Assembly (NCBI GenBank): GCA_903865745.1
Contig: CAIPKV010000021.1
Coordinates: 1-32,235 of the forward strand
Length of the DNA: 32,235 bases
Reading direction: 5' to 3'
Source of the DNA: an uncultured Verrucomicrobia subdivision 3 bacterium
GTDB lineage: Bacteria; Verrucomicrobiota; Verrucomicrobiia; Limisphaerales; UBA11358
Position 1 is the stretch's first letter. Every line of letters begins with the position of its first letter. Made by a program: the position numbers and the translations under genes. The notes under the pieces are model-generated. The model was not told where the DNA came from. It did not search any database and saw only the letters and a list, made by a program, of their open reading frames with translations. Below are positions 19,503-32,235 of the stretch, piece after piece.

Positions 19503-20933
19503 TCATTTACCACCGGGCTTGAGCCAGAGTTTTTCCATTTGTTCGAGGGTGCGGCCCTTGGTTTCCGGCACGAACTTCCACATGAACAGCGCCGCCAGCA
19601 CACTCATCACGCCGTAAATCCAATAAGCAAACCCGTGATGGAAGGCGTTCAACAGATACGGATTGTCGTTCAGGATGGGGAACGTCCAACTGACGATGAA
19701 ATTGGCAATCCATTGCGCCGCCACGGCCACCGCCATCGCCTTACCACGCACCTGATTTGGAAATATCTCACTCAACAGCACCCACACCACGGGCCCCCAG
19801 GAGACTGCGAAACCGGCGATGTAGAACAGCATGCATAATAATGCCAGCACACCTTTGATTTGCAGGGCAAATGCACCGCCTAGCGCAAACATGGCCACCG
19901 CCATCACCAACGCACCGATGATTTGCAGCGGTTTACGGCCCAGCTTGTCCACCGTCAGAATCGCCACCACGGTGAAGATCAAGTTCACCGCGCCAACAAT
20001 GATGGTCTGAAACAACGAGGCGTTGGTGTCGAAACCCACGTTCTTGAATATTTCCGGGGCGTAATACAGCACCACGTTGATGCCGATGAACTGCTGGAAC
20101 ACGGACAGCATGATGCCGATGAAGATCAGCATCGCACCGAAGGAAAACAGCCGGCCCGAGTGGTGCTCCGACAGTGAGGCGCGAATCTCGGTGATTTCCC
20201 GTTCACCTTCCTCAACGGTTCCTATCTTGGCCAGGACGGCCCGCGCACCCGCCTCGTCGCCTTTCAGCATCAGATAGCGCGGGGTCTCAGGCACAAAGAA
20301 AAGTAGCAACAGAAACGACGCCGCCGGAATGGCACCCGATAAGAACATATAGCGCCAGCCGATGGTGTTTAGCCATGCATCGCCGCTGCCGGCTTTGGAG
20401 ATACCGAAATTGACGAAGTAAATCACCAGCATCCCGAAGATGATGGCAAACTGGTTCCACGCCACGAGATTGCCCCGAATGCGAGCAGGGGCAATTTCCG
20501 CGATATACATGGGCGAGAGCATGGAGGCCAACCCCACGCCGATGCCGCTCAGGATACGGTAGAAAACAAAATTCCACATATAGCCCGGCCCGCCCTGCCC
20601 GACCGGCGCAAACGGAAATTCCGGAGCGGCGGCACCGATGGCGGAAACCAGAAACAGCACGGCGGCGATGACCAGTCCGCGTTTACGCCCGATGCGGGTG
20701 CTGACCCAGCCTCCGATGCAGCCGCCAACAATACAACCAATGAGAGCGCTGGAATTGACGATGCCCCACAGCGAATTGGCGTCGTTCGGGTCGCTCAAAT
20801 GCCGCGGATCAATGAAATAAGCCTTCAGGCTGCCCACCGCGCCAGAGATGACGGCGGTGTCGTAACCGAATAACAGCCCACCCAACGTGGCAATCAGGGT
20901 GAACAGAACGATGTAAGGATTGATGCGTGGCAT
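19503..20933 (-). CDS. xylE: XylE-type D-xylose/H+ symporter (MFS sugar porter)
   Basis: 476 residues with 12 predicted membrane helices. Sugar-porter signatures are GGLLFGYDTAVISG (18-31), IGRKRG (81-86), PETPRY (215-220) and PETKGRTLEQME (457-468). Residues lining the sugar site of E. coli XylE are all present at a constant offset of 7 to 8: Gln161, Gln280-Gln281, Asn286, Trp384, Gln407 and Trp408. The phrase WVLLSEIFP and the helix AVAVAAQWIANF are very close to XylE as I recall it. It would import xylose with protons across the inner membrane. It starts 34 bp after the stop of xylA, so the two are almost certainly cotranscribed. A broader pentose or hexose specificity remains possible. 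Confidence 0.92.
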   Translation of the reverse strand: MPRINPYIVLFTLIATLGGLLFGYDTAVISGAVGSLKAYFIDPRHLSDPNDANSLWGIVNSSALIGCIVGGCIGGWVSTRIGRKRGLVIAAVLFLVSAIGAAAPEFPFAPVGQGGPGYMWNFVFYRILSGIGVGLASMLSPMYIAEIAPARIRGNLVAWNQFAIIFGMLVIYFVNFGISKAGSGDAWLNTIGWRYMFLSGAIPAASFLLLLFFVPETPRYLMLKGDEAGARAVLAKIGTVEEGEREITEIRASLSEHHSGRLFSFGAMLIFIGIMLSVFQQFIGINVVLYYAPEIFKNVGFDTNASLFQTIIVGAVNLIFTVVAILTVDKLGRKPLQIIGALVMAVAMFALGGAFALQIKGVLALLCMLFYIAGFAVSWGPVVWVLLSEIFPNQVRGKAMAVAVAAQWIANFIVSWTFPILNDNPYLLNAFHHGFAYWIYGVMSVLAALFMWKFVPETKGRTLEQMEKLWLKPGGK

Positions 20934-20967
20934 ATACTTTGAGTTTGTAATTAAATTTGGTGGTTAA

Positions 20968-22281
20968 TCAGATGAACTCATTGATGAGGTTTTCGAGATA
21001 TTCCTGCCGACCACTGGCGCTGGCGTCGGCTTCGCCCTTCTTGAGCATATAAGCCTCCAATGCCTTGAAGTCGGCTTTGCCCGCTTCAATCTTCGCGCCG
21101 ATGCCGCTGTCCCAGGAGGCGTAGCGATGCTTCACGAACTCGGCTAACCGTCCGTCCTTGCGAATCGCCGCTGCAATCTTCAGGCCACGCGCGAAGGCAT
21201 CCATACCCCCGATGTGTGCGTAGAATAAATCAATCAGCTCAAAGCTCTCGCGACGAACCTTCGCGTCGAAGTTCACGCCGCCGGTCTTGAACCCGCCGTA
21301 TTTCAGGACGCTCAACATCGTGTAGGTCGTCAGATAAATGCTCGTTGGAAACTGATCGGTGTCCCAGCCCAGCAGTTCGTCGCCCGTGTTCGCATCAATT
21401 GAACCGAGCGCGCCAGCGGCGCCGGCCGTTTCCAGTTCATGCTGCATGGTGTGGCCCGCCAGCGTCGCGTGATTCGTCTCGATATTCAGCTTGAAGTGCG
21501 GCAGCAGATCATATTCCCGCAAAAAGTTAAGGCACGCCGCCGCATCGGAATCATATTGGTGCTTGGTTGGCTCCTTGGGCTTGGGCTCGATGTAAAATTG
21601 CCCTTTGAATCCGATGGCTTTCTTGTGCGCCACGGCCAGGTGCAGGAATTTCGCCAGATGCTCCTGCTCGCGCTTCATGTCGGTGTTGAGCAGCGTCATG
21701 TAACCTTCGCGACCACCCCAGAAGGTGTAGCCTTCGCCGCCGAGTTCGTGCGTCACTTCCATCGCCTTCTTCACCTGGCAAGCGGCAAAGGCGAACACAT
21801 CCGCGTTACAGCTCGTGCTCGCGCCGTGGACAAAACGCGGATGCGAAAAGGCGTTGGTCGTGCCCCAAAGGAGCTTCACGCCGGTGCGCTTCTGTTCTTC
21901 CTTGAGGACCTTGGCAACGGCGTCGAGATTCTGGTTTGACTCGGCCAGCGTTTTGCCTTCCGGCGCCACGTCGCGGTCGTGCCAGCAGTAATACGGCGCG
22001 CCCAACTTGCTGATGAATTCAAAGGCCACGCGGGCGCGGTTCTGGGCGTTGCTGATGGAAGGGCTGCCATCATCCCACGGGCGTTGCATCGTCCCCGCGC
22101 CGAACGGATCGCTGCCGGTTCCGCGGAAGGTGTGCCAGTAAACCACCGCGAAACGCAGATGGTCGCGCATCTTCCTGCCTTCGACGATTTCGTCGGCGTT
22201 GTAATGCTTAAATGCTAGCGGGTTCCTGGATTTCGGCCCTTCGTAGCGGATGGTATTTATATTTTGGAATGTTGATTTCAT
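20968..22281 (-). CDS. xylA: Xylose isomerase
   Basis: 437 residues, class II (long) xylose isomerase, about the usual 440. It converts D-xylose to D-xylulose in the cytoplasm. All expected active-site residues occur at the E. coli numbering: His101 and Asp104 ([13 protein letters not shown]), Glu232 and Lys234 (YIEPKPKEP), Glu268, His271 ([12 protein letters not shown]), Asp296, Asp307, Asp309 and Asp339. These cover the two metal sites and the ring-opening His-Asp pair. The start fits the family N-terminus; the leader is AT-rich without a Shine-Dalgarno. The next gene is the xylose symporter, which confirms the role. Xylulokinase, its usual partner, is not in the window. Confidence 0.98.
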
Positions 22282-22454
22282 ATTATTGATGTAACTGCCA
22301 GATTCTTAAATTTATATTGCCGCCACGGTTTCGATTCCTTCGGGAATAAAACCACGCACGCAATGTGCACGGCCTTCTGGGACGGCATAAAATTCATTCT
22401 ATGTTCTTTCAATGCAAAAACGTGCAGCTTGTCTCGCAACCGAATGCCGGACGG
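22282..22454 (-). promoter_or_regulatory. Upstream region of xylA with a small palindrome
   Basis: This 173-bp gap between the GH3 stop and the xylA start is the longest within the right-hand gene run apart from the relic region, and is a natural place for an xylA promoter. On the plus strand, 22334-22347 reads ATTCC-TTCG-GGAAT, a perfect 5-bp inverted repeat, lying about 55-65 bases before the xylA ATG. It could be an operator half-site pair or a small RNA hairpin. I see no LacI/XylR-type longer palindrome and no convincing -35/-10 pair. Confidence 0.3.
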
Positions 22455-25400
22455 CTACGGGCCGACTTTCAGGCCGCCGGTGGCTGAACCTTTCGACCAT
22501 TCGCCAACCGTGGACCAGCGCAAGCTGTCGCTCGGTCCAGTGAGGAGGGCCCCGCGGAGCAAGGGCAACCCGCCCCACTTGGAGGAGGTCAGTTCAGCGC
22601 GCAAGCGCACCTGCGCGCCGGGCTTGATTCCCGTCAGCGCCACTTCCCGCTCGCCGGATTGCAGGGTGAAGGACTTGGAGTCAGTCACTTTAAAGCTTTT
22701 GTCGGCCGTTTCCACCGTCACTTTGATGGCGGCCCTGGAAGGAATTTCCGCCCAGGTTTGGAGGCTGGCGAGGGCAGAAGCGGCGGAGCGCCATTCAGTG
22801 GTCAGGCTGCCAGTACGCAGGCTCTCCACGCCCCGGGCGGCCAGTTCATGAATCGCCCGGCTGTCCATGGTGCTGCGGGTCACCAGCACCTCGTCCATGG
22901 CGAATTTGCCGTGGTAAAGTTCCGGCGCGCTGCCGATCATTTCGAGCGGGCCGGCGTAAGGCGGTTGCGTTTCCGTGTGGTCGAGCTCGCCATCGAGATA
23001 AACGGCGCCCTGCTCGCGCTCGGCGTTGTACGTGTAGGCCACATGGATCCAGTGGCCCAGGGGTACCGAGTTGCGGCCCTGGGTATCCCGATTGCGGAAG
23101 GTGAGCAGGAGCCGGTTGTCGAAGACCGAGGCGGCGAGGCTGGTGCCGATCACGTCGATATCGGCACCCATCGGAGCGGCGCCGCCGAAGAAAGTAGCCT
23201 GCTTGTTTTCCAATGACTCGATATTAACCCAAGCCGCGAGCGTGAAGGACTTGCGGTAAAGATCCAGGCTTCCGGCCTTGATGAAGGTTTGCTTGTCGTC
23301 GGTTCTAAACGCCCGGCCGTGTTTGCCGGTGACAAAGCGAGGGGCGCCTTGAACCGGCAACACGGTCCCGGTCACCTCGTTGCGCACACCGGCATTGTCC
23401 GGAGAGTCGAAATCGAGATAGACCAACGGGTCGCGGAGGGCGAGCCCGATGCCGCCCGGCACCGTCATCGGTTGCCCGGCCCCGTCGCCGATTTTGACCT
23501 GGAAAGTGCCCGCGAACGGGAAGGGGCAGTCCAGCTTGACGGCACAGTGTTCGCCCACTTTGAGATCCAACGCCTGGGTGGCGGCCACCTGGTCATCCAC
23601 CGTGATGGCGAAGTCTTTTTTGTAAGGCTGGCTCCCGGCATTGAAGGCCTCGGCCGCATAGTGCAGCACGCCGTCGTCGCCCAAGGCGGTGCGCACATGG
23701 GAGAGCAACAGGTTGACGGGCACGTTGGACACCTGGAGGGAATGGTAAACCACCTTGCCGTCCACCATGGCCAGAAGGGTTTGCTGGCCGCTTTCATAGA
23801 GGGTCGTCTCGAAAGTGTGGGAGCGGCTCTGGCCCGGCTCGATTTCAAAGCGATGGGTGTCGAGCAAGCGGTTGCAGTATAATTTGACATCAGCCACGTC
23901 GAGCAGGTTGCCCTGGTTTGTGACCGTGACGGTCACCGCCAGCGGCTCGCCGCCGCGCGCCTGGTCCGGAGCTTCCAGCGCGCAGACGAAGTCGGCCTGA
24001 TATGGCCGTGTGACTTCAAACTCACCGGACACACCCTCGGCGGGGTCTTTGAAGCCGATCCGGTTTTTTTGCTGGTCGCCGCTATCAAGCGCCTTGGGGC
24101 TCGAGCCGCCAACGTGAATCCTGAACTTGGCCGGGGCGACCTTGCGCACCAAATCGGCATCGAGGAACGACAGCTCATAGGGCGTCAATTCAAAATCGAC
24201 CGTTTTAGTTTCGCCGCGCTTGAGTGAGACATGCTGAACGCCCTTGAGTTCAATGACCGGTGTAATCACCGGAGCCAGCATATCGGTCACATAGAGCTGA
24301 ACCGCTTCATCGCCATCGCGCTCGCCGACATTGGCCACGTCCACGCTGACGTGGACAAAACCCGGATCATCGGTCTTGGGCGTGATCGTCAGATGGGAAT
24401 ACTGAAAGCGGGTGTAACTGAGCCCGTAGCCAAACCGGTAGAGCGGGGTAAAAGGCATGTCATAGTAACGGTAGTTGCGGCCCGAAGGCAGGTAGTCGTA
24501 GGTCAGCGGCAGCTGGCCCACATGCCGCGGGAATGTAATGGGCAAGCGGCCCGAAGGATTGCGGTCGCCGAAAAGCAAATCGGCCGTGGCGTTGCCGCCC
24601 TCCTCCCCCGGGTACCAGGTCTCCAGAATCGCCATAATATTATCGGCCTCCCAAGGCAGCGTGAAGGGTTTGCCGTTGACCAGCACCAACACCACGGGCT
24701 TGCCCGTGGCTTGAACTTCCTTGATGAGCTGGCGTTGGACGCCGGGAATCTCCAGCGTGGCGCCATCGGTGTTTTCGCCCGTGGTGGACTTGCCGCCTTC
24801 CGGACGGCTGCGATCCCCGACCACGAGAATGACGACATCCGCCTGTTTGGCAATATTGACGGCCTCGGCAATGCCCGACGTCGAGTCGGAGGTTTGGTCA
24901 CAGCCGCGCGCATAGAGCACCTTGGTCCCTGCGCTCACGTGCGATCTGACGCCTTGGAGCACCGTCACTAACTGATGGTCCAGGGCCTTGGGCGAATAGT
25001 CGCCGGTCTGGGCTTCGTCGGCGTTGGGTCCGATGACCGCCACCTGCCTGATCGTCTTGCTCAGCGGCAGCAAATGGTCGTCGTTCTTGAGCAGCACCGA
25101 GCTTTGCACCGACACCTCGCGCGCCAGGGCGCGATGCTCGGGCGTGTCGTAGGCCGGCAGCTTGTCCCAAACCATTTGCGCGGAACCGGGATTCTCAAAG
25201 AGGCCCAGGCGAAACTTGGCGCGCAGCACCCGGCGCACGTTAAGATCCAACTGGCTCTCTTGCACGAAGCCGTCATGTACGGCCTTGGCCAGCGCTTGAT
25301 TGAAAGTCGAGCCGCACTCGATATCCACGCCGGCCAGAACCGCCTTGGCGGCCGCTTCTTCGGTGGTTTGAACCACGGACTGCTTGGTCAGGAAATTCTC

Positions 25401-26201: not shown

Positions 26202-27524
26202 TCAAGGGGAGTCATCTGTGAGCAGTTGCCGTGGCACGCTCGGGGACGACGGCAGTTCGCCACGAATCATCCGGGTGGCCGCCCCGGTCAGTTTCAAGTA
26301 AAAATCTGATGGCAGGCCATCGTAGGTGACGAAGTATTTACCCACGGGAGTGACATTGGCCACTTTGTAAATCGCCGTCCCTTCGTCAACCTCATCGAAC
26401 ATGCCCACGAATACCGTGCGGATGCCCAGATCCCGAAAAATCGCGAACTGGCGCCAGTAGAACTCGCCCTGGCGGCGGGGGATCAGCGTGGTGCCCGGCT
26501 TCGTCTGGCGCAGGTTGTCCCAGGAAAAACCCGGAAAGGCGGTCGGCATATAGCCCATTCCCCGCGGTTTCAGCTCGGCCAGGTCCGCTTCCCAAACGTT
26601 CTTTCGAATTCGATCCATGGAGGCGGGATCATGGTAGCGGTCGGCGTCCCAGGGACTGATGGCATCGAACGAACGATAGACTTTGGCCCAGGCATCATTC
26701 GTTCGTGAGGAGCCGGCCAAGGTGCGCCAACGGGGATCAACTCCACCAATGAGATATGCTCCACCGTACTGAGGGTCATCCTTGAAAAAGCGGATGAGTT
26801 CCCCGGCTTGCTCGGGAGACCAGGAGCGGTCGTTTAACCCCAAACCCCAGAGCAGCACCACCGGCTTGTTCTGTTGATGGAGATAGCGCGAGTCCTCGCG
26901 GACTTTGACTTTGTCGCAAAGGAACTTCCAGTCGTTCATGACAATTGCAGTGGTGGCGTCCGGGCCGGCGGTCACATCCAGCATCATTGCCCAAACGCGT
27001 CCCTCCCGGTGACAGCCTTCCCGGACGTTTGCGAGCACCTGGTTAATATGGCGTAATCGCGAGGGGTTGGTTGTTTCGCCGATGAAACGGCTAAGGAAAA
27101 CACCATCAATTCCGTAGTGCCGCATCCATTGAAAGTGCAACAATACGGGTCCTTTCCGGAACGCACTGTAGAGAAGCGCAGGCGAGCCATCGGGCATTTT
27201 CAAACCCGGCACCTGATGCAGGTCTTCCGGGGCGTATTCCGAGACATCCGGCCACATGTCCACAGTAAAGCGCCCGCCGTTGGTGCTTTCAAGCCCCTGA
27301 CCCCAGTGAACGAAGCCAAGGTCACTACCGTCCCCCGGCGTGTTAAACCACCCCTGGTAACCGCACAGAACTTTCCCATCCAGGGTGCCAGGATCGATAT
27401 CGTCGCGAGTGGGGCCTGAGTAGGGATGGAGCCATGGTTCGGGCGGATCAGTGTTTTCTTCCGCGGCACAGAATGCTCTTGCGCACAGAAACAGAAGCGC
27501 CAGCAGGAGGTTTTTTGAAATCAT
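26202..27524 (-). CDS. Secreted glycoside hydrolase family 71/99-like protein
   Basis: 440 residues with signal peptide 1-20. The opening LDGKVLCGYQGWFNTPGDGS and VHWGQG, then DMWPDVSEY, YSAFRKGPVLLHFQWMRHYG and DGVFLSRF are characteristic of the bacterial GH71/99-like proteins, often labelled xylosidase/arabinosidase in databases. The acidic cluster MFDEVDEGTAI near residue 380 sits where GH99 enzymes carry their catalytic carboxylates. The fold is a single TIM barrel. Characterised GH99 enzymes are endo-acting on alpha-mannans and GH71 on alpha-1,3-glucan; the substrate of this subgroup is not known to me. It precedes the GH3 gene by 39 bp and follows the rhamnosidase-like relic. Confidence 0.85.
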   Translation of the reverse strand: MISKNLLLALLFLCARAFCAAEENTDPPEPWLHPYSGPTRDDIDPGTLDGKVLCGYQGWFNTPGDGSDLGFVHWGQGLESTNGGRFTVDMWPDVSEYAPEDLHQVPGLKMPDGSPALLYSAFRKGPVLLHFQWMRHYGIDGVFLSRFIGETTNPSRLRHINQVLANVREGCHREGRVWAMMLDVTAGPDATTAIVMNDWKFLCDKVKVREDSRYLHQQNKPVVLLWGLGLNDRSWSPEQAGELIRFFKDDPQYGGAYLIGGVDPRWRTLAGSSRTNDAWAKVYRSFDAISPWDADRYHDPASMDRIRKNVWEADLAELKPRGMGYMPTAFPGFSWDNLRQTKPGTTLIPRRQGEFYWRQFAIFRDLGIRTVFVGMFDEVDEGTAIYKVANVTPVGKYFVTYDGLPSDFYLKLTGAATRMIRGELPSSPSVPRQLLTDDSP

Positions 27525-27574: not shown

Positions 27575-27895
27575 TTATGTTTCAGTCGCCTTAAACTGAC
27601 TGGCGCCTCGTTTTGTCTTTTTTGGCACGCAGCGGGTTACCTGCACGGCGGGACCGAAAAGTCCGGAAGGCAGCAATCTCTCCTGCGCCGAGACCAGCCC
27701 CGGGCGTTACTGGTCGATAACCACAAAGGAAAAACGCTTTGGCTGGTCCAAAGGCAAAAGCAGGTCGGCGAGGATTCGGCTCACAAGCAGATTGGTGACC
27801 CGAATCTTGAGTATAAACTTGCCTTTCTTCAACGCGCCACTGGCGTCCAGTTGATGCGACGGTTCCCACAGCAACAAAAACAGGTGGAAGTTTGT
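27575..27895 (-). pseudogene. Decayed C-terminal remnant of a GH106-like (alpha-L-rhamnosidase) gene
   Basis: One reading frame holds 107 codons with no start codon and a single internal TAA at 27707-27709. Before that stop it reads WEPSHQLDASGALKKGK, ILKIRVTNLLVSRILAD and PLDQPKRFSFVVIDQ. After it, in the same frame, it reads RPGLVSAQERLLPSGLFGPA. These match the closing beta-sandwich of GH106-type enzymes as I know it (LD-x-T-x-ALK-x-GxNxLxIRVTN-x-W-x-NRLIGD, then LLPSGLLGPV). The frame is closed on its upstream side by TGA at 27896-27898, so the ~900-residue remainder is gone. The overlapping 105-codon frame in another phase (27591-27908) is an artefact. The gap is 27525-27935. A GH2-type C-terminal sugar-binding sandwich is the alternative source. 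Confidence 0.65.
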
Positions 27896-27935
27896 TCATG
27901 ATCATCAAGTGTTAGTAAGCTCCGCTGACCCTTTT

Positions 27936-30719
27936 TTATCTCATTTCAATAAACGACGCTTGGATCCGCTGGTCGTCGGAGGTCACCGGCTTGCGCTCCA
28001 TGGGATAACCCAAAACTAGGTACTCGCCCGGATGAGTGGGCGATTCGTAGGAGTTGGCGTCCTTGCCGGCAAGACCGGTCTGGCGGCGCCAGGTAGCGTC
28101 GCGCTTGAATTCCGGCGAGCCGTCGTCCTTTTCGAACAGGATCACCCCTTCCTTATCTCGCAGGTAGAACCCCGACAGCCGGGCCGATTCGAAAGAAATG
28201 CCGGCGGGATCAGCAAGGCCGGGGGTCAGGCACCATAAAGCATCGTCATCTTGATTCACATTTCTATCCAATTGAGTGACGTCTTTTCGCTCCCTATCCT
28301 GGCTGTTATGTATGACAAAACCGTTCTCGTTGACCGGTCGCAAGCGGACGAATGGATTGATGACCTGAAGACCGGCAAACCGGGCATTGGCGGCAGTTGC
28401 TCGGACACCGATGGCGCCGACCAGCGAGCAGTAGTTGGTCACTTCTATCGACGGCTTAGCCATGTCCCCGCAATACACACGGATGGTGCCGCCGAAAGCG
28501 GCTACCTTGAGATGGTGTTTCCCGTCCGCCGTGGAGTCCAGCGGCACCGATTGGAGCGGAGTCCAGGCGCCCCGATTGGCATAGCTCAAGGTTAGGCCGG
28601 TGGTGGTTGAAATGCTGGCGCAGTAGCCACTGATTTTCTCGCCCTGAGCAGCGTCGCCCGAGCAGCGGAACAGCAGGCCAGCCTCACCGGTGGCAGGCAC
28701 GGTGATGTCTGCCTCGGCCAGGAGGTTATTGAAGTGAGAGGCCGCCAGGGCCAATCCGGGGGTACTATTGGCGTAACCATCCGGTGTGGCAGTCCACTTT
28801 CCCTTGCGTGGAGACCAGACCCCGGCTGCGGCGAACTCATCGTCCAAGACTTTGGAATAAGGTTGTCCCAATTGCTTTGAGGCCGCAACCAGGTCATCGT
28901 GGGCGGCCTTCATGGCGGCCATGTCAGCCTTGAAGACCGCGCGGTCGTAGGTGAACAGTCCGTTGCGCTCGCCCTCCACGTCGGTGATCTGGGTGAATAA
29001 GGCATAGCTCAGGCCGGGACTGTAGAGGAAAGTTTTGAGGCGTCCGATCTTATCGACGTACCAAGCGGTGAAGTCCTCTTTGGTACGCTCGTCCCGGTCG
29101 GCCGGTAGCCAACTGTGATCTTTGATGACGTACCCCATCCCGCCCCACTCGCCCTGCCCCGCAAAACGGGTTTCCAGCGGCGGCGGTGAACCCGGGCCGG
29201 GATAAGTATGCCAGTCAATGACGTCGCCATTGGTCGCCGGGCCGGCGGCGGTTTCCACCGCAAGGAATCGGGTCGGATCGTAAGCCTTGATTCGATCCCC
29301 CAAGGCCATGATCTCCTTCGCATCATGGTATTCGCCCCAGCCCTCGTTGAACGCAATCCATCCGATGATCGAGGGCGAACTGCGAAATTGGCTGATCATC
29401 TCTTTGAATTCAGTCTCGAACTGTTGCTTCCACTCGGGGGGTGCCTCGGGACGACTCTGGGCAATCGTGCCGTCCGCTCGAATGCTTTCGTTAACCATCG
29501 CCGGCATATCCTGCCAGACCAAGATGCCCAACTTGTCAGCCCAATAATACCAGCGGGCGGGCTCCACCTTAATGTGCTTGCGGATGGTGTTGAACCCGCA
29601 TTTCTTTGTCTGCTCTATGTCAAACTTAAGCGCCTCGTCCGTCGGCGCCGTGTAGAGACCATCGGGCCACCAGCCCTGGTCGAGCGTGCCCATCTGGAAA
29701 ACGAATTTTCCGTTCAGTAGCGGACGCGTGATGCCCGCAACCTTGCCGACGCTTACGCTGCGCATGCCAAAATACCCGGTGACAGTATCCATAATCATAT
29801 CCCCCTGCTTGAGAGACACTGTTATGTCGTAAAGAAACGGATCGTCGGGCGACCAGGGATGGGCATTGGGGATTGCGATCTCGATTTCCTTTCCCGCCGC
29901 ACCTGTCCCGCTTGCCACCCGCTTGACTTTGGCGGAGACGAGAGCCTCCACGGTCCGGCCTTCGGCATCCCAGCCCTGAACGGTGAGCCGCAGCATCCCG
30001 TTCGCCACATCCGGCGTCATGTCCAGTAGTGTAATGTAAGATGCGGGTACGGGTTCGAGCCAAACGGTCTGCCAGATGCCGGAGTTTGCCGTGTACCAGT
30101 AGCCGCGCGGCTGCAGCGTCTGTTTACCCGTGGCCTGGTAACGGTCGGTTTCATCGGTGGAATCGTAAACATTGACGATCAGTTCATTGTCCCCCGGTTT
30201 CAGATACTGGCTGATATCAAAGCTGAATCCACAGTAACCGCCTTTATGCCCGCCCACCTCCTGGCCATTGACATAAACAGTCGTCTGCCAATCGACGGCG
30301 CCGAAATGCAGCAGGACGTGCTGACCGGCCCAATCCGATGGCACAGTGAAATTACGGCGGTACCACATTCTTTCTTCGTGCCGCATGAGGCCGGAAAGCG
30401 CCGATTCCACGGGATATGGAACGAGGATCTTTTCAGGCAGAGTCTTGCCCGTGGGCACCGCCGCATCCTTGAGAGCGGCTGAGAACTCCCAAAGCCCGTT
30501 CAGATTAAGCCATTGCCGCCGGACCATCTGCGGCCGCGGATACTCGGGCAGCGGATTAGTCACCGATACCTGGCTCGACCAACGGGTCATGAGCTTGGCT
30601 GTTTTTATCTCGTAGCACGCGGCGTTGCCAACAGCGGCAATCGCCAGGCCCGTAACCATAACAGACAGAAGTTTTGGCATGACTTGGTTGATTACGCGTT
30701 CTGGTTGTTTGCTGTTCAT
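27936..30719 (-). CDS. Secreted GH2 enzyme with LamG-like and AbfB (CBM42)-like C-terminal domains
   Basis: 927 residues. The start codon is followed by a short polar stretch and a hydrophobic segment (about 14-35) that fits a signal peptide. The GH2 N-domain (about 60-220) has MWYRRNFTVP, VLLHFGAVDWQTTVYVNGQE and GYWYTANSGIWQTVWLEPVP; an Ig-like domain and TIM barrel follow. The acid/base is Glu459 in IGWIAFNEGWGEY and the likely nucleophile Glu524 in GQGEWGGMGY. Residues about 615-780 are a LamG/DUF1080-like sandwich. From about 785 to the end an AbfB-like beta-trefoil is recognisable (SFESARLSGFYLRDK, FKRDATWRRQTGL, YESPTHPGEYLVL), a fold that binds arabinofuranose side chains. This supports an arabinoxylan or arabinogalactan substrate. 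The gene starts 24 bp after the upstream GH2-like gene ends, so they are likely cotranscribed. Confidence 0.92.
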   Translation of the reverse strand: MNSKQPERVINQVMPKLLSVMVTGLAIAAVGNAACYEIKTAKLMTRWSSQVSVTNPLPEYPRPQMVRRQWLNLNGLWEFSAALKDAAVPTGKTLPEKILVPYPVESALSGLMRHEERMWYRRNFTVPSDWAGQHVLLHFGAVDWQTTVYVNGQEVGGHKGGYCGFSFDISQYLKPGDNELIVNVYDSTDETDRYQATGKQTLQPRGYWYTANSGIWQTVWLEPVPASYITLLDMTPDVANGMLRLTVQGWDAEGRTVEALVSAKVKRVASGTGAAGKEIEIAIPNAHPWSPDDPFLYDITVSLKQGDMIMDTVTGYFGMRSVSVGKVAGITRPLLNGKFVFQMGTLDQGWWPDGLYTAPTDEALKFDIEQTKKCGFNTIRKHIKVEPARWYYWADKLGILVWQDMPAMVNESIRADGTIAQSRPEAPPEWKQQFETEFKEMISQFRSSPSIIGWIAFNEGWGEYHDAKEIMALGDRIKAYDPTRFLAVETAAGPATNGDVIDWHTYPGPGSPPPLETRFAGQGEWGGMGYVIKDHSWLPADRDERTKEDFTAWYVDKIGRLKTFLYSPGLSYALFTQITDVEGERNGLFTYDRAVFKADMAAMKAAHDDLVAASKQLGQPYSKVLDDEFAAAGVWSPRKGKWTATPDGYANSTPGLALAASHFNNLLAEADITVPATGEAGLLFRCSGDAAQGEKISGYCASISTTTGLTLSYANRGAWTPLQSVPLDSTADGKHHLKVAAFGGTIRVYCGDMAKPSIEVTNYCSLVGAIGVRATAANARFAGLQVINPFVRLRPVNENGFVIHNSQDRERKDVTQLDRNVNQDDDALWCLTPGLADPAGISFESARLSGFYLRDKEGVILFEKDDGSPEFKRDATWRRQTGLAGKDANSYESPTHPGEYLVLGYPMERKPVTSDDQRIQASFIEMR

Positions 30720-30743
30720 TTTGGATGTTGCGCCATATCCCTT

Positions 30744-32235
30744 TTATTGAATCGCATTGCCCAGCATTTTGAGGGCGATCCAGTGGTTGAATCCCCACCC
30801 CTCGGCGCCGCAGGCGCGCACAAACTGAGGCATATCGATCATGGTCAGGGGAACTCCCTCATAGGTCCAGGTTGCCACCACGTGGCCGGGGTTGCTCTGG
30901 TGATCGGCGCCGACCGCCACGGCCACCTCCAGATTCTGGGCGTCAAACACATGTCCCCGTCCCGGCGCCCCCCCCATGTCGGCGTAGAAATGATCCTGTC
31001 CATAGGTCGCGGCGGCCTGGTATTTCCAGTCCATCACTTCCCCGACGGGCAACCCCTCGAGCAGCTTGTGCTTTCGAGTGAAATACCAGCCGCCCATCCA
31101 GGGCTCATGCGCCGTGGACCCGTCGCTGACATTCTCTTTGCCAGGCAAACTGGCACGTTCTTGGGCACGGTCGTGATCATAGATGGCAATCAAAGGTATG
31201 TGGTGTTGCTTCGCCGCTTTCATCAGATCGTCGAGTATCCTTTGCGGATTATATAACGCCCCTTTCCAGACATTGCCGTCCTTGTCCGTGATGTCCTGAT
31301 AATCACCGGCGTAACGGTGCACGCCGCCCTGAGCATCCGTGATCTTCACCGCCACCAGGAAATTCTGCGGATCCAGGTCTCCTCCCGGCCCATTGATGTC
31401 GACGTAATTGCGCTGAATCACCTCGCTACGATTGACCTCCGCAGCTTTGATCTGGATTTTGCCGTCCGTCACTTCAACTTTGACCGTATTTGTGATGAGA
31501 GCTATCTCGTGCGCCTGCGCCGCTGCTTGCCGATCATATGTTAGATCTTCCACCACACGCTTTCGGTTCACGTCTATGTTTATCCGCGGTCTGATCTTTT
31601 CCATTTTCGGAAAAGTGAATTCAATTTCGGCCGGGCCGTTGGGAAAGCCCTCCAGCTTGAAATAGGTGCCCATGAGATTGGCTTCAGCATACTTTTTGAA
31701 CACTCCGCCAGCGATGGGCTTATTCTCGATGTTCGCACCAATACTCGTCTTGGTGGAGAAGATGATGACATCCGCCTGGTCGAGAGTATCGACTGTCCGG
31801 ATGCCCAGCGCATCCAGCCCTTTCTTCACTTCGTCCTCATCTTCCACCAGATATACTTTCTTATCCGTTTGGACACGACAATCGACAACCTGCAGTGGCA
31901 CCACCCGTTCAAGCACGGTCTTTCCATCCCTCACCAGTTTCGCCTCAACCGTGGCCAGGCCAGCCTCCGGCATTTCAAAATGAGCGTTTTCAAGCAACAG
32001 CTGGCTGAACTTGATTCCGCCTTCCAGGCTAACTTTCTGTTCAACCGTTCCGATCAGCTTCCCGGAAGGGGTCTTGGCCGTCGCCTGAAGGGTAAAATCC
32101 CCTTTCAGATCCTTTTCATTGAGGATCCAGAAGTCAACGACGGCTTCGCCGCCCTGGGGGATAATGAGATGACGGGGCATGATGGAGATCATCAGCGGCT
32201 GAAGACCTTCGGCCATCAGCTTCGGGTCGCCCTTG
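30744..32235 (-). CDS. C-terminal part of a GH2 beta-galactosidase-like protein (cut by the right edge)
   Basis: The frame is open to the window edge. The first Met (32216) is internal, because the codons before it (KGDPKL) continue the family phrase K-G-x-P-x-L that precedes the post-barrel domains. AVVDFWILNEKDLKG (about 25-40 from that Met) is the typical Ig-like domain after the GH2 barrel. Then come a flavodoxin/amidotransferase-like segment (VDTLDQADVIIFSTKTS, and later DDLMKAAKQHHIPLIAIYDHD) and a malectin-like segment (NYVDINGPGGDLDPQNF, near 270) lying between its halves. The closing block has HKLLEGLPVGEVMDWKYQ and WGFNHWIALKMLGNAIQ. The catalytic barrel lies outside the window, so activity and substrate cannot be judged. 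Confidence 0.82.
   Translation of the reverse strand, partial: KGDPKLMAEGLQPLMISIMPRHLIIPQGGEAVVDFWILNEKDLKGDFTLQATAKTPSGKLIGTVEQKVSLEGGIKFSQLLLENAHFEMPEAGLATVEAKLVRDGKTVLERVVPLQVVDCRVQTDKKVYLVEDEDEVKKGLDALGIRTVDTLDQADVIIFSTKTSIGANIENKPIAGGVFKKYAEANLMGTYFKLEGFPNGPAEIEFTFPKMEKIRPRINIDVNRKRVVEDLTYDRQAAAQAHEIALITNTVKVEVTDGKIQIKAAEVNRSEVIQRNYVDINGPGGDLDPQNFLVAVKITDAQGGVHRYAGDYQDITDKDGNVWKGALYNPQRILDDLMKAAKQHHIPLIAIYDHDRAQERASLPGKENVSDGSTAHEPWMGGWYFTRKHKLLEGLPVGEVMDWKYQAAATYGQDHFYADMGGAPGRGHVFDAQNLEVAVAVGADHQSNPGHVVATWTYEGVPLTMIDMPQFVRACGAEGWGFNHWIALKMLGNAIQ

Follow-up and report, generated by a model that had tools for sequence, protein, structure and literature searches.

The DNA analysed here, referred to as the window, comprises 32,235 nucleotides of an uncultured Verrucomicrobia subdivision 3 bacterium and carries genes for saccharide degradation on the minus strand. 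A glycoside hydrolase family 2 (GH2) enzyme with a C-terminal AbfB domain (residues 799-901 of 927) is encoded in an intact frame at 27936-30719, with its stop codon at 27938-27936. Downstream, at 26202-27524, lies another intact frame whose protein has a weak, below cut-off similarity to the Pfam GH99 family. Genes for a GH3 enzyme, a xylose isomerase, a sugar transporter, a second GH2 enzyme and a sulfatase belong to the downstream set. The GH2-AbfB and GH99-like genes are separated by an interval that contains a relic of a GH106-type gene. The relic is oriented as both flanking genes and as the entire downstream set.

The preliminary description placed the relic inside a hemicellulose locus. 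This is supported by the xylose isomerase (TIGR02630, 714.9 bits at a cut-off of 533), by the AbfB domain and by the GH3 enzyme, which is closest to beta-xylosidase models, yet remains under their cut-offs. A role in the utilisation of xylan or arabinoxylan is plausible. The sulfatase does not fit the assignment as well and suggests that the scope of the locus may be wider.

At its right end, from 30723 to 32235, the window is nearly duplicated elsewhere in the genome: the 4031-base contig C51 opens with 1513 bases that share 92.6% identity with this part. A 496-codon ORF leaves the window at this end and C51 starts within the same ORF; therefore, the assembly apparently broke at a repeat. The protein encoded at 30744-32216 is similar to the C-terminal portions of two longer frames, one on contig C32 (1092 codons) and one on C20 (1202 codons), both of which also show GH2 similarity. 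Judged by these matches, it could represent the end portion of a GH2-like enzyme truncated where the contig stops.

Read through on the minus strand, 27895-27575 yields 62 codons, a TAA, 43 codons and a closing TAA (27577-27575). The frame with a single internal stop, as first described, was thus reproduced, with the in-frame TAA at 27709-27707. An in-frame TGA (27898-27896) precedes the frame immediately. The frame had been described as lacking a start codon, which holds for ATG; the alternative start codons TTG and GTG are present. Family-like residues had been reported on both sides of the stop, and the alignment agrees: IRVTNLLVSRILAD 5' of the internal TAA and LLPSGLFGPAV 3' of it are both GH106-like and match the C-terminus of GH106 proteins. 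The similarity does not cover the full extent of the frame. The alignable core spans about 75-80 codons at 27874-27644, corresponding to positions 61-130 of a 140-position profile and also matched in tblastn by the GH106 gene on contig C32. The approximately 22 residues from GPAV to the closing TAA show no recognisable conservation. At the other end, the 61 nucleotides at 27935-27875, from behind the GH2 stop codon to where recognisable GH106 residues begin, have no assignment and no similarity to GH106.

The C-terminal profile was built from 17 intact GH106 C-termini, leaving out the relic. Against it, the relic scored 51.2 bits, and the best of 2000 residue shuffles reached 5.5 bits, which places the similarity to a GH106-type C-terminus far beyond chance. 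Four of the five other frames of the same DNA were reported, each below 0 bits. In a six-frame translation of the window, the relic ranked first with an E-value of 2.7e-14. The sole further match above 0 bits, at about 30165-30368, is the sugar-binding domain of the neighbouring GH2 enzyme. This is a related domain; the jelly-roll model rhamnoside_JR matches the GH2 protein as well. The same NCBIfam model (NF045579) aligned its positions 83-119 of 123 with relic residues 8-44 (E 6.1e-5). This is the last third of the domain only, and the 23.2 bits are under the curated cut-off of 50. A search of the PDB yielded a weak match (E 0.088) of relic residues 9-83 to 6q2f, a 'Glycoside hydrolase family protein' that is a GH106 rhamnosidase of Novosphingobium; the aligned residues, 1070-1136 of 1151, are at its C-terminus. 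The 6q2f chain is long and includes the rest of the protein, whereas the relic is the tail alone. A Pfam search of the relic gave no match, since the GH106 model PF17132 ends ahead of the C-terminal part.

The genomic context of related sequences connects this tail to GH106. The nearest gene, with 45% identity (tblastn, E 1.3e-13), is a 1272-codon GH106 ORF that the same genome carries on contig C32; here, the PF17132 match is at 20436-23042 and the relic-like part behind it at 23799-24032. At each of 15 loci in relatives that matched the relic, the longest ORF scored as GH106, with 263-744 bits to a profile made from the four GH106 proteins of the window's genome. Six relic-like matches in G014, G028, G119 and G160 had PF17132 on the same contig and in an open frame of equal length. 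This also applied to the own paralogues on C32, C59 and C68. The relic aligns to the ORF ends of these three genes. Each of them is an undamaged ORF (963-1272 codons) that includes a PF17132 catalytic region, in contrast to the relic with approximately 80 codons, an internal stop and no such region. Thus, the relic has the tail that is found behind the GH106 catalytic region and lacks both this region and an intact ORF (internal TAA, upstream TGA and no ATG).

The remaining nine tenths of a GH106 gene are absent from the window, as searched by tblastn with four full-length GH106 proteins. Below an E-value of 0.1, only the relic stretch was found, by three of the four queries and not by the C53 protein; no other GH106 piece, such as an intact N-terminal part joined to the relic, is present in the window. 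A genome-wide PF17132 search revealed no match on contig C21 and four other genes, on C32, C53, C59 and C68. Every one has its own C-terminus, and therefore a detached N-terminal partner does not exist elsewhere in the genome.

Codon usage and residue conservation characterise the state of decay. With a codon table trained on the window's own genes, the relic frame scored 0.28 bits per codon. The other five frames scored lower, and the value falls inside the range spanned by the window's genes (minimum 0.051, median 0.408 in 348 overlapping 75-codon windows). The residual codon bias is accompanied by a loss of conserved residues. Out of 14 positions that are invariant across the 17 intact C-termini, the relic retains 10 and has lost a proline, two asparagines and a valine. 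In the same leave-one-out test, 16 of the 17 intact rows lost at most one invariant position, and the divergent row of C32 lost 3 of 17; the loss is a moderate signal because an intact gene also shows it. C32 is also the only one of the 17 intact rows that has, like the relic, NLL replacing NxW. One stop and no clear frameshift in approximately 80 codons amount to mild decay, which counts against reading the stretch as a decayed relic. Still, homology to an intact family, truncation together with a stop and the loss of conserved residues, the characteristics of a pseudogene, are all present.

Standard ORF calling reports a wrong frame at this place, as had been described. The 105-codon ORF with a TTG start at 27591-27908 on the minus strand has a non-coding codon usage (-0.277 bits per codon) and no Pfam or NCBIfam match. 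It is unsupported as a gene and drops out of the annotation.

The stretch is best explained as the decayed 3' stub of a GH106 gene that formerly lay between the GH2-AbfB and the GH99-like gene, was mostly deleted and has no function today; we consider this quite probable. An intact gene of the alpha-L-rhamnosidase-like family would have been located between the two genes, with the orientation they share. Its promoter, N-terminus and entire catalytic region would have been lost through at least one deletion, with a deletion junction expected in 27875-27935. What was left, about 80 codons from the jelly-roll tail at the C-terminus, would then have acquired the stop codon and the substitutions at invariant positions. 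The survival of the tail could be due to a putative sigma-70-like promoter at 27585-27557 on the minus strand (CTGAAA-17-TATAAT, 10 of 12 bases), which overlaps the end of the relic frame, precedes the GH99-like gene and may have been worth keeping for it. An additional enzyme, encoded and then lost, had been proposed for the locus. The non-functional GH106 relic without its 5' nine tenths agrees with this proposal; an intact gene at exactly this site, its removal by deletion and the compounds it degraded are inferred. Rhamnose-containing glycans would be the substrate going by the family name. Pseudogenes of this sort are common in bacterial genomes. The relic looks like ordinary gene loss in a bacterium; nothing points to a working product, and no new mechanism is demonstrated. 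Among the literature titles listed, none dealt with GH106 pseudogenes; this is no claim of absence in print.

An intact GH106 gene at the syntenic position of relatives, the comparison proposed in the preliminary description, was not found. Nor did the search reveal any orthologous locus, and a former intact gene is compatible with this result. The best 80 of 126 loci with GH99-like relatives were inspected, many on short contigs and with flanks of at most 10 kb, often shorter. Neither the GH2-AbfB gene nor the relic was present in these 80 loci, and two profiles detected no GH106 gene there or in an enlarged region of G070:C41. At E <= 1e-60, the GH2-AbfB protein was matched in 48 genomes of the 97, its own included. 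Matches from other genomes stop at or before residue 690 of 927; therefore, the AbfB part is not shared. No GH106 gene was seen adjacent to close relatives of the GH2 gene when the match lists were compared by eye. Where GH2 and GH106 occurred on one contig, they were about 14-34 kb apart (G039:C274, G056:C201 and G062:C155). On C32 of the window's genome, the ORF that comes after the intact GH106 gene is GH2-like, sharing 24% identity with the GH2-AbfB protein. Hence, GH106 next to GH2 does occur in this genome, as a loose parallel. Since neither an orthologous locus nor a syntenic intact GH106 gene was found, it is the anatomy of the locus that argues for a loss in place.

Alternatively, recombination or transfer placed a fragment from the 3' end of a GH106 gene between the two genes, and an intact gene never existed here. 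The missing syntenic copy is in line with an import, as are the orphan GH106 tails in other gene contexts of G001 and G009. So are the relatives of the GH99-like gene with 69-77% identity: these 11 among the best 80 of 126 loci belong, by record title, to Planctomycetota and Verrucomicrobiota and do not have the window's glycoside hydrolases beside them, and the locus therefore looks like a mosaic. The relic has, however, the orientation of both flanking genes, and neither direct nor inverted repeats were found around the segment. A recent partial copy would also show a DNA match, but a search of 97 genomes at E <= 0.01 yielded, besides the stretch itself, only four chance-like matches of at most 38 bases. 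An import is an unlikely origin. Under either origin, the saccharide locus probably once held, or received part of, a GH106 gene. The identity pattern of the GH99-like gene is an observation in its own right. Other matches within the same taxonomic order (E <= 1e-100) share 42-48% identity, save one at 72%, and this sequence comparison suggests a transfer between phyla.

A present role, as a small protein encoded by the 105-codon ORF or part of the relic frame, or as a leader or promoter of the downstream gene, is highly improbable. The promoter-like match at 27585-27557 speaks for such a role, with two sites in the scanned region, one per strand, versus 0.3 expected. The non-coding codon usage and missing family match of the 105-codon ORF stand against it, as does the lack of DNA conservation in the 97 genomes. 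Rfam gave a single chance-level match of 14.5 bits, far from the gathering score of 50, and the sole terminator-like site is at chance level. Equally improbable is an assembly artefact, with the TAA or the truncation created by a base error or misjoin. The draft status of the genome (87 contigs) and the near-duplicate stretch at the window's right end speak for it, but this stretch starts about 2.8 kb away, truncation, stop and four lost invariant residues would all need to be errors, and the genome has no orphan GH106 N-terminus as a partner.

A phylogenetic tree of 21 C-termini left the decayed stub unplaced. Its branch length was 3.9 in comparison to a median of 0.29, and its position beside C32 carries a long-branch warning. 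From 14 added C32-like rows, L147, L153 and L155 were included in the tree; the 11 left out were ten genes on the strand opposite to the frames that were read and L157, which had no usable C-terminus. L017 matched initially, was missed by the local search and is outside the 17 intact rows.

GH106 fragments are also present in other genomes of the genus. A first set of 17 genomes, searched with the C-terminal model and with rows paired by eye, had 92 matches, and 54 of these reached position 130 of 140. In 48 of the 54, PF17132 was detected in the same gene. Five had no PF17132, namely the relic, G001:C18, G009:C24, G009:C28 and a weak match on G009:C29 (25.8 bits), and one, on G009:C78, had an N-terminal PF17132 fragment only. 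The stubs on G009:C24, G009:C28 and G001:C18 are, like the relic, C-terminal ends (about 65-190 codons) without a catalytic region. They differ in their gene neighbourhoods and in their profile scores of 66-158 bits versus 45 for the relic. A second set of 14 further genomes, searched at the stricter E <= 1e-8, had 85 matches, including 67 that reached position 130. Seven of the 67 are in frames shorter than 700 codons, and a comparison of contig and frame lengths shows all seven to be cut by contig ends; internal orphan tails were not seen among these short frames, and the other 60 matches are in longer frames. An eighth short frame, on G058:C308, is also a contig-end cut and falls short of position 130. 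Contig ends also account for two catalytic matches that lack a tail, on G018:C16 and G009:C18, and for the partial match on G018:C54. N-terminal GH106 fragments occur as well (G020:C77 and G009:C78).

In a 936-position model, the six fragments of the first set start at positions 771, 842, 857, 857, 866 and 895. The starts at 857, 857, 866 and 842 belong to fragments of G000, G001 and G009; those at 771 and 895 are both from G009. The clustering is suggestive, but the fragments are few. The clustered starts lie near W-x-x-P, a conserved motif in the jelly-roll domain. This domain has a relative in the GH2 proteins and, judging from this relationship, could serve as a recombination site. A preferential break of the genus' GH106 genes just ahead of the last 70-95 residues, leaving a recurrent 3' stub, is nevertheless very doubtful. 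The second set had no internal orphan and four of the six fragments originate from G009, a genome with an estimated contamination of 7%; such a hotspot is therefore insufficiently founded. The presence of GH106 fragments in at least three genomes of the genus means that enzyme counts based on short C-terminal matches alone would be too high.

Individual fragments differ in their surroundings. In G009:C24, an orphan GH106 C-terminus (L161:2993-3367; about 112 codons, no catalytic region) is flanked by sigma-factor-like and sugar-kinase-like ORFs, as labelled by eye. The orphan end in G001:C18 (L166:1628-1858) has about 71 codons and shares 59% identity with the gene on C68 in the window's genome; the sole PF17132 match of G001 is weak and under the cut-off. 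The stub in G009:C28 (L163:2452-3441), a C-terminal end of about 190 codons, has a TGA near its end, and a catalytic region was not detected within 7 kb. On G009:C78 (44500-54500, L171), an intact-looking GH106 gene has GH106 fragments on either side. One of them consists of an N-terminal piece directly followed by a C-terminal piece in one short frame. This layout would fit a loss through recombination of neighbouring copies.
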